Below, in pieces: positions 34,878 through 56,625 of a stretch of DNA of 64,000 nt. This stretch comes from Mannheimia haemolytica. Its GTDB lineage: Bacteria; Pseudomonadota; Gammaproteobacteria; Enterobacterales; Pasteurellaceae. Below the pieces are notes generated by a model. The model had not been told where the DNA came from and ran no database searches. It worked only from the letters and a program-made list of their open reading frames with translations. Each line of letters begins with the position of its first letter. Within the stretch, counting starts at the first letter, position 1. The position numbers were made by a program, and so were the translations under genes. The stretch lies in assembly GCA_900638155.1 (NCBI GenBank), contig LR134495.1, positions 62,001 through 126,000 on the forward strand, written 5' to 3'.

Positions 34878-35460
34878 TTTAGCAATTTTCTACTGTGGCA
34901 CAAACGGAGCGGGTAAAACTACATTACGAGGATTTAACAAAGATACCGTACAGATTGTAATTGACTCCGATCATATTGCAATGGAAATCAACCCACAAAA
35001 TCCACGATTAGCGGATTTAGAAGCTGGCAGAAAAGCGATTGAATTATTCAAATTTGCACTGAAAAATCAGATTTCTTTTTCAATGGAATCTACGCTATCA
35101 GGCAAATCCATTTTAAATCGAATGAAACAGGCAAAAGAGAAAGGTTTTTCTCTTCGTTTAAATTATATCGGTGTAAATGATCCTGATATTAATGTAAGAC
35201 GTGTTAAAGCTAGAGTAAAAGCGGGTGGGCATTTTATTGATGAACAAACAATCCGCCAACGGTTTAACATGAGCCGAAAAAATTTAATTACCGCACTTTC
35301 ATTTTGCGATGAAGTGTTAATTTACGACAACTCTGCTGAAATACCCGAAGTGGTTTTTCATATTGAGAATAACCAAATCACGCAAATTGCGAATAATTTA
35401 GTAGGTTGGTGTGAAAATTTGCGTGATGAATTGGTAGGATTAGGGTTTAAGATCACCTAG
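34867..35460 (+). CDS. Zeta-toxin-like P-loop kinase
   Basis: A 197-residue P-loop NTPase starting MQNNLAIFYCGTNGAGKTTL, with Walker A GTNGAGKTT at about 11-19, DSDHIAMEINPQNPRLAD, SFSMESTLSGKSILNRMKQA and an Arg-rich stretch NVRRVKARVKAGGHFI followed by RQRFNMSRKNL. This layout is that of the zeta-toxin / predicted ABC-type ATPase family (COG4185); zeta toxins phosphorylate UDP-N-acetylglucosamine, but I cannot tell whether this one does. I chose the ATG at 34867, which overlaps the small ORF. The stop TAG lies inside the left palindrome of repeat C1. Confidence 0.82.
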   Translation: MQNNLAIFYCGTNGAGKTTLRGFNKDTVQIVIDSDHIAMEINPQNPRLADLEAGRKAIELFKFALKNQISFSMESTLSGKSILNRMKQAKEKGFSLRLNYIGVNDPDINVRRVKARVKAGGHFIDEQTIRQRFNMSRKNLITALSFCDEVLIYDNSAEIPEVVFHIENNQITQIANNLVGWCENLRDELVGLGFKIT

Positions 35461-35567
35461 CACGAGCCGTGCTAGGCTCGATAATCCTAGCTCCTTCGGA
35501 GCTTAGAAAAGAATAAAGAGCCGCAGAGTGGCTCGGCTATGTTTAACCCCACACGGCTCGTGTGGGG
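35456..35567 (+). repeat. C-family structured repeat C1
   Basis: Left palindrome with arms CCTAGCACG and CGTGCTAGG around AGC (35456-35476), linker TAATCC, small hairpin AGCTCC-ttc-GGAGCT, small hairpin GAGCC-gcagagt-GGCTC, linker TATGTTTAAC, right palindrome with arms CCCCACACG and CGTGTGGGG around GCT (35547-35567). The stop codon of the zeta-like gene is in the first arm. Other copies: 35868-35973, 53179-53290 and around 56527-56625. Confidence 0.8.
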
Positions 35568-35569
35568 TT

Positions 35570-35627
35570 GCAAGCGGTCGGGTTTAGGTAAAATTTTGCA
35601 AAAAATTACTCAAAACAGACCGCTTGT
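35570..35627. terminator. Inverted uptake-signal pair after C1
   Basis: GCAAGCGGTC and GACCGCTTGT frame AT-rich sequence containing AAAATTTTGCAAAAA. A degenerate copy of the same pair follows repeat C2 at 35975-36021 (AAGCAGTC and GATCACTT). Confidence 0.55.
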
Positions 35628-35642
35628 AAAATATCAAACGAT

Positions 35643-35697
35643 AGCACTCGCCTCTGACGGGGGCTTAAATAAATAGGCACTCGTCGGAGACGAGCGC
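35643..35697. repeat. Short palindromic sequence between the two zeta-related units
   Basis: GCACTCGCCTCTGACGGG is followed by GCACTCGTC-gga-GACGAGCGC. The second part is a clear hairpin; the first looks like a diverged copy of the same word. I see no gene in this stretch, and the whole 35461-36119 gap holds only repeats and a gene fragment. Confidence 0.45.
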
Positions 35698-35710
35698 CAT
35701 CGGGGCGATT

Positions 35711-35872
35711 TTTATCAATGATGAAACACTGATTTATGATAATTCAGAAACCAAGCCGAATTTGATTTTGCAGATTGCGGATAAGAAAGTGATAAAAATC
35801 TCAGAAAAAATACCGAATTGGTGTAATCAGCTTTGTGATGAATTAGTGGAATTAGGTTTCGGAATTTCCTAG
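35711..35872 (+). pseudogene. Fragment of a second zeta-like gene (3'-end only)
   Basis: The frame from 35711 reads FINDETLIYDNSETKPN, LILQIADKKVIKISEK, IPNWCNQLCDELVELGFGIS and stop. It aligns without gaps to the C-terminus of the complete zeta-like protein (VLIYDNSAEIPEVVFHIENN, NLVGWCENLRDELVGLGFKIT). There is no start codon and no Walker motif upstream. The stop TAG again lies inside the first arm of a C repeat. At protein level the two ends differ at about half of the positions, so this is the remnant of a diverged paralogue rather than a fresh duplication. Confidence 0.82.
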
Positions 35873-35973
35873 CACGAGCAGTGCTAGGCTCTATAATCCT
35901 AGCTCCTTTGGAGCTGTAACTTAGAGCTACAAAGTGGCTCGGCTATGCGTAACCCCACACGGCTCGTGTGGGG
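35868..35973 (+). repeat. C-family structured repeat C2
   Basis: Left palindrome with arms CCTAGCACG and AGTGCTAGG around AGC, linker TAATCC, hairpin AGCTCC-ttt-GGAGCT, hairpin GAGCT-acaaagt-GGCTC, linker TATGCGTAAC, right palindrome with arms CCCCACACG and CGTGTGGGG around GCT. Nearly the same as C1 and placed in the same way after a zeta 3'-end. Confidence 0.8.
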
Positions 35974-36119
35974 TTGCAAGCAGTCAAATTTCCGCAAAAT
36001 TTTGCAAAAACAGATCACTTGCATAGTACAAAGATAGAACCCTTCTTTAACGTTTAAAGAGTATTATCGGAGATATATTTTCTACATTTAACTAAACACA
36101 AAATTAGTAAGGAATAAAA

Positions 36120-54875: not shown

Positions 54876-55021
54876 TTACTTACCTTTACATTGATTAATA
54901 TTTTCAATCCTTGAAATTATAAAAATTATCCCTATTAAACTAAATTAAGTATATAGTAATAATAGTTCTATATATGAAGACACATAAGCAAATTAACAAA
55001 ACTTTCTAAGGATAAATACTC

Positions 55022-55180
55022 ATGAAATATATTTCTGGGCAAACTGTTCCAAAATCCGGAATTTATGGATTATTTTCACATACAGGTAAACAAGAAAACA
55101 GAGTAACTTGTGTAAAAGGTGAGCCATTCCCACCTACACCACGTTCCAATATGTACTATAAATTATTAGTAGCTGCTTGA
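55022..55180 (+). CDS. Small YjzC-like protein of 52 residues, divergent within the his operon
   Basis: Reads MKYISGQTVPKSGIYGLFSH, TGKQENRVTCVKGEPFPPTP, RSNMYYKLLVAA. The pattern G-x-x-V-P-x-S-G-x-Y followed by V-T-C-V-K-G-E-x-F-P-P-T-P is that of small YjzC-type proteins found in many bacteria; their function is unknown. CTAAGGATAAATACTC precedes the ATG and a terminator follows at 55192. It is transcribed against the his genes, between hisB and hisH. Confidence 0.8.
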   Translation: MKYISGQTVPKSGIYGLFSHTGKQENRVTCVKGEPFPPTPRSNMYYKLLVAA

Positions 55181-55191
55181 TTATTCATATA

Positions 55192-55215
55192 AATGGCTAG
55201 GTTATTCTAGCCATT
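55192..55215 (+). terminator. Terminator of the small YjzC-like gene
   Basis: AATGGCTAG-gttatt-CTAGCCATT followed by CATTTTTCC. Confidence 0.75.
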
Positions 55216-55321
55216 CATTTTTCCTCTATTAAAATCGATCGAAATCCCGCAAAACTTTGCAAAATTCAACCGCGCTTTTGCACTCTCCCTCCAAAAATCC
55301 TTCGGATTTTTTCCACCCAAG

Positions 55322-55384
55322 ACTCGCTACGCTTGCCTCCTTCGGAGCCGTTGGCAAAGCCAACGTTCAAATGCAAGCATTTGT
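55322..55384 (-). repeat. Hairpin-chain repeat H5 next to hisB
   Basis: Read on the minus strand: ACAAATGC-tt-GCATTTG, then AAC-GTTGGC-ttt-GCCAAC, then GGCTCC-gaa-GGAG, then GCAAGCGTAGCGAGT. The preceding AAAAATCC-ttc-GGATTTTT (55293-55312) is a further hairpin. The whole 232-base gap between the small gene and hisB holds only such repeats. Confidence 0.7.
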
Positions 55385-55412
55385 CCCGAGCGGGCGAGGG
55401 GAAGATATGAGA

Positions 55413-56501
55413 TTATAAAACCCCTTTGGAACTCGGCAACTCATTCCCTTCAATACGAATGCACTGTCTAAGCGTTCTGCCGAAGACTTTAAACAGGCTT
55501 TCGATTTTGTGGTGGTCATTGTCGCCTTTTGCCTTGATGTGTAGGGTAGCGAGCATCGTGAAGGCAATGGATTGGAAGAAGTGTTCCGTGAGTTCGGTGC
55601 TGAAATCGCCCACTTTGTCACGTTTGAAATCGGCTTTGAACTTGATGAACGGTCTGCCCGATAAGTCCATCGCACATTCTGCACGGCTTTCGTCCATCGG
55701 CAACACGAAGCCGAAACGGGCGATGCCGCGTTTGTCACCAATCGCTTGTTTTAATGCGGTGCCGAGGGCGAGGGCGGTGTCTTCCACCGTGTGATGTTCG
55801 TCAATCCACAAGTCGCCTTTGGTGGTGATGTTCATTCTAAAACCGCCGTGGGTGGCGATTTGGTCGAGCATATGGTCGAAAAAGCCCACGCCGGTGCTGA
55901 TTTCGTTGTTGCCCGTTTCGTCCAGCCATACTTGCACTTTGATGTCGGTCTCTTTAGTTTTACGGATAACTTCGGCAAAGCGCTTTGGTCGCTCGCCAAT
56001 GTTGGTCACGGCTTCGCCCAGCAGTTTTTCGGCAATCAAATCCCAATTCAGCTTTTCAGGGTGATATTGCAACGCCCGAATGCCAAGGTTTTCCGCCAGT
56101 TGCACATCGGTGGCACGGTCGCCAATCACAAAGCTGTTGGCAGGGTCGAACAGTTGGCGGTCGATGTATTTTTGCAGCAGTTTGGTGTGCGGTTTGCGGC
56201 AATCGCAGCCGTCTTCCGGCTTGTGCGGACAAATCAGCACATCATCAAATTCAATCCCTTGCGAGTTGAACAACGCCATCATCGCATTGTGCGGTTTGTC
56301 GAAATCTGCCTGTGGGAACGAACTCGTGCCTAAGCCGTCTTGGTTCGAGACCATTACAAAGCGGTATTTGCCCTTGAGTTTGAGCAGGGCTGGAATGACG
56401 TTTTTCTCGAATTTGAGCTTTTCAAGGCAGTCGATTTGAAAATCGGTTTTCGGCTCGTCAATCAAGGTGCCGTCACGGTCGATAAAAAGGGTGGGTTGCA
56501 T
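55413..56501 (-). CDS. hisB: Histidinol-phosphatase / imidazoleglycerol-phosphate dehydratase HisB
   Basis: Bifunctional enzyme for steps seven and nine of histidine synthesis. The 362-residue protein has an N-terminal HAD phosphatase domain ([20 protein letters not shown]; zinc-binding [32 protein letters not shown]) and a C-terminal dehydratase domain (about 165-362; [54 protein letters not shown]). The fused form is the enterobacterial/Pasteurellaceae type. Confidence 0.97.
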
Positions 56502-56526
56502 ATTTTTCTCCTGTATTCATTGTGTC

Positions 56527-56625
56527 AGTCGCGGAGCGACTGGGTTTATCGAGCCTAGGACGGCTCGTCCTAGGCACCCCGTACGAGCCGTACGGGGTTC
56601 TTTAATCCGAGCTACTCCGTAGCTC
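56527..56625 (+). repeat. C-family repeat C4: two palindromes back to back at the hisC-hisB junction
   Basis: AGTCGC-gga-GCGACT, linker GGGTTTATCGAG, palindrome CCTAGGACG / CGTCCTAGG around GCT (56554-56574), then CA, palindrome CCCCGTACG / CGTACGGGG around AGC (56577-56597), linker TTTAATCC, hairpin GAGCTAC-tcc-GTAGCTC (56609-56625). It is the right part of one C element joined to the left part of another. The last hairpin encodes the C-terminal residues and stop of HisC. Confidence 0.75.

Follow-up and report, generated by a model that had tools for sequence, protein, structure and literature searches.

Two-hairpin repeats of Mannheimia haemolytica and their probable partner, an IS200-type Y1 transposase of Pasteurellaceae

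A stretch of 64,000 nucleotides from Mannheimia haemolytica (contig LR134495.1, positions 62,001 to 126,000 of the forward strand; 'the window', to which coordinates below refer) carries four copies of a structured repeat, here termed the 'C-family'. These repeats are probably (at a probability of about 0.78) non-autonomous DNA elements, comparable to miniature inverted-repeat transposable elements (MITEs) and to REPINs, in which each pair of inverted units (a 'dyad') corresponds to the two ends of an IS200-type element that lacks its gene, and which would be served by a Y1 HUH transposase bearing the motif of subclass 1.2. The case is built on the anatomy of the unit, the covariation of its arms, its linkage to the transposase gene (tnpA), the congruence between hairpin core and transposase tree, the unlike arms at the two ends of a dyad, and the presence or absence of dyads at orthologous sites.

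Anatomy, covariation and spread of the unit

An earlier, sequence-only reading of this DNA had placed repeats at four positions in the window, and sequence of the described kind is present at all of them. That reading proposed a single five-part fold; the plan is instead one two-hairpin unit, repeated in inverse orientation. Each unit consists of a large hairpin (a CC-arm, ACG, the loop AGC, CGT and an arm ending in GG), an 11-nucleotide linker, and a small hairpin with a 3-nucleotide loop. The common plan claimed for all four copies holds for copies 1 to 3, where two units are inverted with their small hairpins innermost; copy 4 is everted, with the order small hairpin, linker, large hairpin (GCT), large hairpin (AGC), linker, small hairpin, so that its large hairpins adjoin.

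None of the four copies is assigned a strand. Copy 1 (35456..35567) has a left large hairpin with a CCTAGC arm at 35456-35476, followed by the linker and a small hairpin at 35489-35503; its right half comprises a small hairpin at 35518-35534, the linker and a large hairpin with a CCCCAC arm at 35547-35567. Copy 2 (35868..35973) is built likewise, from a large hairpin at 35868-35888 (core ACG-AGC-AGT, with one mismatch), small hairpins at 35901-35915 and 35924-35940, and a large hairpin at 35953-35973. Copy 3 (53179..53290), immediately upstream of the minus-strand gene hisA, has large hairpins at 53179-53199 (a CCCCAT arm with one mismatch) and 53270-53290 (a degenerate arm of the CCTAGC type) around small hairpins at 53211-53227 and 53242-53258; one minimum-free-energy fold of this copy pairs its two halves, the cores of a dyad being complementary. 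Copy 4 (56526..56625), in the gap between hisC and hisB, has small hairpins at 56526-56542 and 56609-56625, each joined by a linker to one of the large hairpins at 56554-56574 (CCTAGG) and 56577-56597 (CCCCGT). A 214-residue open reading frame (window 34816-35870), presumably encoding a zeta-toxin-type P-loop protein, ends within copy 1, with its stop codon in the left arm, and a diverged stretch resembling the C-terminal end of this reading frame lies ahead of copy 2.

A model of the unit (R1), constructed from 18 units of the host genome that had been collected by blastn and pattern searches, matches both halves of every copy: 35455-35510 on the plus strand (68.1 bits) and 35512-35568 on the minus strand (68.5) in copy 1, 35867-35922 plus (65.9) and 35918-35974 minus (65.3) in copy 2, 53178-53233 plus (70.5) and 53236-53291 minus (71.2) in copy 3, and 56520-56575 minus (68.1) and 56576-56631 plus (70.5) in copy 4. 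The sequence ACGAGCCGT occurs seven times in the window, always within the copies, against an expectation of 0.26. The linkers had been described as fixed; they are conserved, and the variants GATAATCC, TATAATCC, TTTAATCC and GATAAACC are found in the window. On its linker side, the large hairpin of the 18 host units carries TTA, CTA, CTC or a similar triplet.

The arms change in a compensatory manner, well beyond shuffled controls. Across the 18 host units, 95.8% of structure cells are paired (78.8% after shuffling), 63 cells are changed on both sides (22.5 after shuffling), and covariation reaches 0.507, compared with 0.187 for shuffled alignments and at most 0.102 for structures slid along the sequence. 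In an alignment of 119 distinct units from several genomes, which was fitted to R1 and is therefore biased towards the structure, the corresponding values are 94.7% against 78.4% of cells paired, 410 against 146 double changes, and 0.492 against 0.180 for covariation. The suggestion that selection acts on folding over sequence is thus supported. Only 39 of approximately 1,910 paired cells in the larger set (about 2%) are G-U or U-G, and since such pairs are few and the changes are Watson-Crick swaps, the pairing looks like that of DNA, pointing to hairpins that form in DNA.

This scarcity of G-U pairs bears upon the possibility that the repeats are structured RNAs, hairpins in operon mRNAs that would govern processing, stability or translation and be maintained by selection on RNA folding. 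Many copies do lie between the genes of one operon, for example the histidine operon, and covarying arms would be expected of such an RNA; nevertheless, units are present in either orientation and also outside operons, no Rfam family exceeds its cut-off on the copies (the one match, at copy 3, is of chance level, with E 0.51), and the core types track the tree of a DNA transposase, as described below. An RNA function is therefore improbable. Of the roles offered by the sequence-only reading, a mobile or protein-binding element agrees with the evidence, whereas an RNA-acting one does not, given the few G-U pairs, the two orientations and a partner from a family of single-stranded DNA transposases.

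Further copies exist beyond the window. Neither of the two outcomes that the sequence-only reading named as refuting it, a lack of further copies and arms no more complementary than shuffled controls, was obtained. In the host genome, R1 yields 25 matches at E<=1: the 18 units of the model, two additional units that carry the core of another subtype (L062 and L063; E 4.7e-9 and 1.5e-4), and five weaker matches (E 0.018-0.75), all but one of them adjoining a unit or overlapping one on the opposite strand. No open reading frame of at least 90 codons spans any of the 12 host unit places examined. Matches at E<=0.01 were obtained in 69 of 140 genomes of the family, representing 21 of 43 genera, in a survey with stricter filters that scored at most 40 candidates per genome; R1 also responds, weakly, to units of other subtypes. 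From the class, 274 genomes were drawn and surveyed with stricter filters and 20 candidates scored per genome: the host was the sole match and none of the 273 others was matched.

The transposase and its hairpin core

Clusters of copies led to a gene for a 146-residue Y1 transposase, situated between two dyads in another genome of the family (G092). The protein matches PF01797 (91 bits), the IS200 model NF033573 (78.7 bits; cut-off 55) and Y1 transposases in the PDB; its match to NF047646, the model for REP-associated tyrosine transposases (RAYTs; REP, repetitive extragenic palindrome), is weak (28.2 bits, below the cut-off of 80). Its motif resembles YIKNQKEHH and is not of the RAYT type, in which NP follows the catalytic tyrosine. 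The pattern Y---Q--HH, a length near 148 residues and a C-terminal extension are traits of TnpA_Y1 subclass 1.2 in the accessible part of PMC6006769 (Quentin et al. 2018), an assignment made by comparing motifs with Table 1 of that paper.

Relatives of this transposase at E<=1e-5 occur in 72 of the 140 family genomes. Once short or broken relatives were excluded, 55 full-length matches of at least 54% identity remained, of which 54 gave a set of 53 distinct proteins and one (L245, on contig C20 of G055) was kept apart. The nine closest (subtype S1, that of the window; 72-100% identity) have C-family units on both sides in eight cases and downstream only in the ninth (L117), and all nine genomes also contain R1 matches. 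Most of the remaining full-length relatives (about 54-64% identity) are flanked by units of the same plan with different cores. Carriage by phages or plasmids was considered and set aside: a tblastn search with one subclass-1.2 protein returned 64 plasmid and 7 phage records, all of them holding relatives below 60% identity.

The correspondence between core and protein is not limited to the closest relatives. Fifty of the 53 proteins were sorted by eye, before tree building, into six core types according to the units beside their genes; the other three, left unassigned, received a seventh label. When mapped onto the protein tree, these labels require seven changes, where the minimum is six, the mean of shuffled labels is 32.8, and none of 200 shuffles is as low; the presence of near-copies favours such clustering. 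Types S1, S2, S3 and S6 each occupy one side of a branch. Core type tracks the branching of the transposases.

The structure of the gene-bearing element also connects the dyads to this transposase. Of the 44 tnpA genes outside S1, 27 are enclosed by a large hairpin, a TTAnnnATA-like linker and a small hairpin on one side and by the mirror image on the other, giving elements of 562-595 bp in which the left large hairpin ends 40-47 nucleotides ahead of the start codon and the right one begins 27-44 nucleotides past the stop. Dyads of type S2 in the gaps of the histidine operon share these ends and lack the gene, so that a dyad reads as an element minus tnpA; dyads of both S1 and S2, with the same linker and hairpin plan, are found in such gaps beside elements that do carry it. 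The dyads therefore look like tnpA-less derivatives akin to MITEs or REPINs.

A mechanism consistent with these features would begin when a strand is exposed in single-stranded form, as at a replication fork, allowing each end to fold into its hairpins. The transposase would then read the fixed core together with the TTA/TAA found where the large hairpin meets the linker, while the arms, needing only to pair, would be free to undergo compensatory Watson-Crick swaps. Excision of the dyad and its rejoining elsewhere would follow. Unlike arms may serve to stop the two ends of a dyad from pairing into one long hairpin.

Orthologous sites, unlike arms and the weighing of alternatives

The histidine operon is a repeated residence of both gene and dyad. 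Between his genes are encoded 41 of 54 distinct transposases, a count that includes L245, which stands outside the tree and has neither a his gene in its 13 kb nor a visible unit beside its gene; most of the cases outside the operon are covered by about 1.5 kb on each side. The sites are hisC-hisB (25), hisH-hisA (13) and hisF-hisI (3), where part of the hisH-hisA rows were reported as hisF by tblastn and taken as hisA because the two are homologous. Three his operons hold two different tnpA genes (L233, L239, L240). The dyads in the hisH-hisA, hisD-hisC and hisF-hisI gaps are of the C-family or of type S2, depending on the species within a genus. In the window, the part of the operon that contains copies 3 and 4 (hisC, hisB, hisH, hisA, hisF and hisI, identified by tblastn) occupies 50196..57669 on the minus strand. 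Its hisB-hisH gap (54876-55415 in the window; L099-L104 and L226-L244 elsewhere) varies from 537 to 4115 bp across genomes and holds other open reading frames at loci for which these were listed. A reading of the clusters as integron cassettes was also rejected: among the three clusters with listed open reading frames, that of the host is surrounded by ordinary genes and the other two are located in the his operon; an integrase was not searched for.

The presence of dyads at orthologous sites varies between genomes. At one intergenic site (L003), a C-family dyad is present in the host, G091, G092 and G094, a dyad of another subtype in G093, and neither in G090 and G095; at a second (L004), the dyad is present only in the host and G092 of the seven genomes, the rest having other sequence that in part forms other hairpins. 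At that second site, G093 and G094 (L282 and L284) carry, where the host has its dyad, a longer stretch bounded by inverted repeats resembling TTACTTTCTTTGC. Copy 4 occupies the position at which relatives carry tnpA: alignment of the hisC-hisB gap with that of G032, a genome of another genus, places the single everted pair of the host against two copies that lie as direct repeats around the gene, with 194 of 196 positions identical on the left and 171 of 178 on the right. The single pair in the host represents either recombinational loss or the state before gain. The hisC end in G032 (L103) is 99% identical to the window (56401-56720) over 196 nucleotides although that genome is listed in another genus, pointing to a recent exchange of DNA or to close kinship at this place.

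The two arms of a dyad differ. Equal 6-nucleotide arms are found in none of 53 distinct dyads, where re-pairing of the ends would give 11.7 (0 of 10,000 trials as low), and four dyads outside the C-family, found by script, also have differing arms. In gene-bearing elements, whose ends lie about 500 bp apart, the first 8 nucleotides of the arms are shared in 14 of 27. Because close ends never agree and distant ones often do, equal arms in close proximity appear to be avoided, which suggests either that they would create one long palindrome or that each end must fold alone; as the two sets differ in subtype and the dyads share descent, the comparison is suggestive only.

These arms also bear on the possibility that covariation arose without selection, with hairpin-templated repair or strand switching maintaining perfect palindromes. 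The observed changes are full Watson-Crick swaps, as templating at the level of DNA would give, but this process accounts neither for the constancy of core and linker nor for the association with tnpA, nor for the unlike arms of every one of the 53 dyads. As a sufficient explanation it is unlikely, and it may act alongside the transposase. Least probable is that the units are the REPs of one of the two RAYT-like PF01797 genes of the host (L042 and L043; contig C1, 597345-597551 and 1938983-1939303): two such genes exist and dyads resemble bacterial interspersed mosaic elements (BIMEs), yet each gene is flanked by its own palindrome type (GGCGCAAGCGT and GTAGGTTGGGTTAGCG, read by eye) and not by the C-family, and in the units seen the linker side of the large hairpin is TTA/TAA or CTA/TAG instead of GT[AG]G.

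Several observations weigh against the proposal of transposase-mobilized dyads. No movement, cutting or binding was observed in this analysis of sequences, and hairpin-templated repair could keep the arms paired without selection. The host genome has no subclass-1.2 gene (none at E<=1e-5), so that its copies look orphaned, and several of the genomes richest in R1 matches (G042, G044, G049 and G115; their counts are lower bounds, at most 40 candidates having been scored) have no close S1 transposase. In S1 the gene lies between whole dyads, and no dyad enclosing the gene was seen; read by eye, the unit part nearest upstream of the gene is the large hairpin in six of nine loci (L109, L110, L112-L115) and the small one in L111 and L116, with no upstream unit at L117. 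Outside S1, 17 of 44 genes failed the strict search for ends. Core types, sorted by eye, require three changes for S4 and two for S5. Finally, neither a base-clean junction nor a target duplication was found at the two intergenic sites compared across seven genomes.

Known systems and other phyla

The assertion that no named family resembles these repeats stands for the exact element: among the publications listed on RAYTs and REPINs, IS200, the his operon and Pasteurellaceae, no title or opening of an abstract describes it, none of five genus or family names looked for occurs in PMC3733652, and nothing on it appears in the accessible parts of PMC3686654 and PMC8729771. It does not stand for the way the element appears to work, which is that of REP/RAYT and IS200/IS605 systems. 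With REPs, BIMEs and REPINs, as presented in the accessible text of PMC2817692 and PMC3116915, the C-family shares dispersed extragenic palindromes, inverted pairs, a single Y1 gene of stable position flanked by inverted copies, and coevolution of gene and palindrome; a Y1 gene with cognate flanking palindromes and dispersed copies, typical of those systems, is found here as well. It differs in having two hairpins per unit, unlike arms at the ends of a dyad, a partner of IS200 type, and no GT[AG]G at the palindrome foot, the tetranucleotide that defines REP/RAYT in the accessible part of PMC6006769. In a REPIN, two inverted REPs pair as one hairpin; here the cores are complementary and one fold of copy 3 pairs its two halves, but the arms differ in all 53 dyads. 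RAYTs with GTAG REPs of other sequence have been reported from two Haemophilus (PMC2817692, accessible part). IS200/IS605 elements (subclass 1.1) likewise combine a Y1 HUH transposase, small size and hairpins at both ends, the last being found for the 27 enclosed genes described above; in the present family the ends are mirror images, there is usually one gene per subtype per genome, and residence in the his operon recurs. As in MITEs, both ends are shared with a gene-bearing element and the gene is absent.

Subclass 1.2 itself, in the accessible text of PMC6006769, is reported mostly from Cyanobacteria and Bacteroidetes, is entered as 'REP: no' and generally lacks the terminal structures of IS200. 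The present proteins agree with it in motif, length, low copy number and an IS200-like core, and differ in coming from a family of Gammaproteobacteria and in being associated with two-hairpin ends and dispersed dyads; hairpin ends at many loci depart from the absence of REPs and terminal structures recorded there. A scan of named genomes across phyla, covering the best 80 of at least 557 subclass-1.2 loci (20 of the 80 were displayed, picked mostly for shared repeats), found a repeat of at least 12 nucleotides common to both flanks at 47 of 79 loci, compared with 3.1% of 387 mismatched pairs; some of the shared repeats are not hairpins. Pairs of hairpins 6-16 nucleotides apart occur upstream at 12 of 80 loci and downstream at 15 of 79, against 0.1% of shuffles. 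A score of at least 24 is reached by 18 such flanks, distributed over 13 loci, with linkers of 9-13 nucleotides, and the remaining 67 loci fail this strict test on both sides; the small hairpin is outside in 17 of the 18, the order seen beside most S1 genes and opposite to that of other subtypes. One such unit, from a Chryseobacterium genome, matches that genome 19 times, a count to which its own locus and overlapping fragments contribute.

A bolder extension is rather doubtful: that subclass 1.2 and two-hairpin units constitute a distinct class of domesticated systems for single-strand transposition, one that spans phyla and parallels RAYT/REP, in which the arms of a dyad are necessarily unlike so that its ends fold alone, and whose gene is kept in the his operon by selection. 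If so, residence there could couple expression of tnpA, and hence the spread of dyads, to amino-acid starvation. The narrower proposal of tnpA-less dyads would already supply a candidate DNA substrate for a transposase subclass that the accessible text of PMC6006769 reports without one, would extend REP-like biology beyond RAYTs, and would provide naturally varied hairpins, in which the core is fixed, the arms vary freely and the two ends differ, from which to learn what a Y1 transposase reads.

Elsewhere in the window, the Rfam family AaHKsRNA22 (RF02902), a family of Aggregatibacter sRNAs, matches at 49108-49208 on the plus strand (95.4 bits) and 55301-55391 on the minus strand (41.2 bits), with a third match at 44414-44494 on the plus strand (33.3 bits) below the cut-off of 39.8. 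Two of these three places were read and share a GAACGTTGGCTTTGCCAACGGC hairpin, and a similar stretch occurs in L284; this 'sRNA' family may itself be a repeat.

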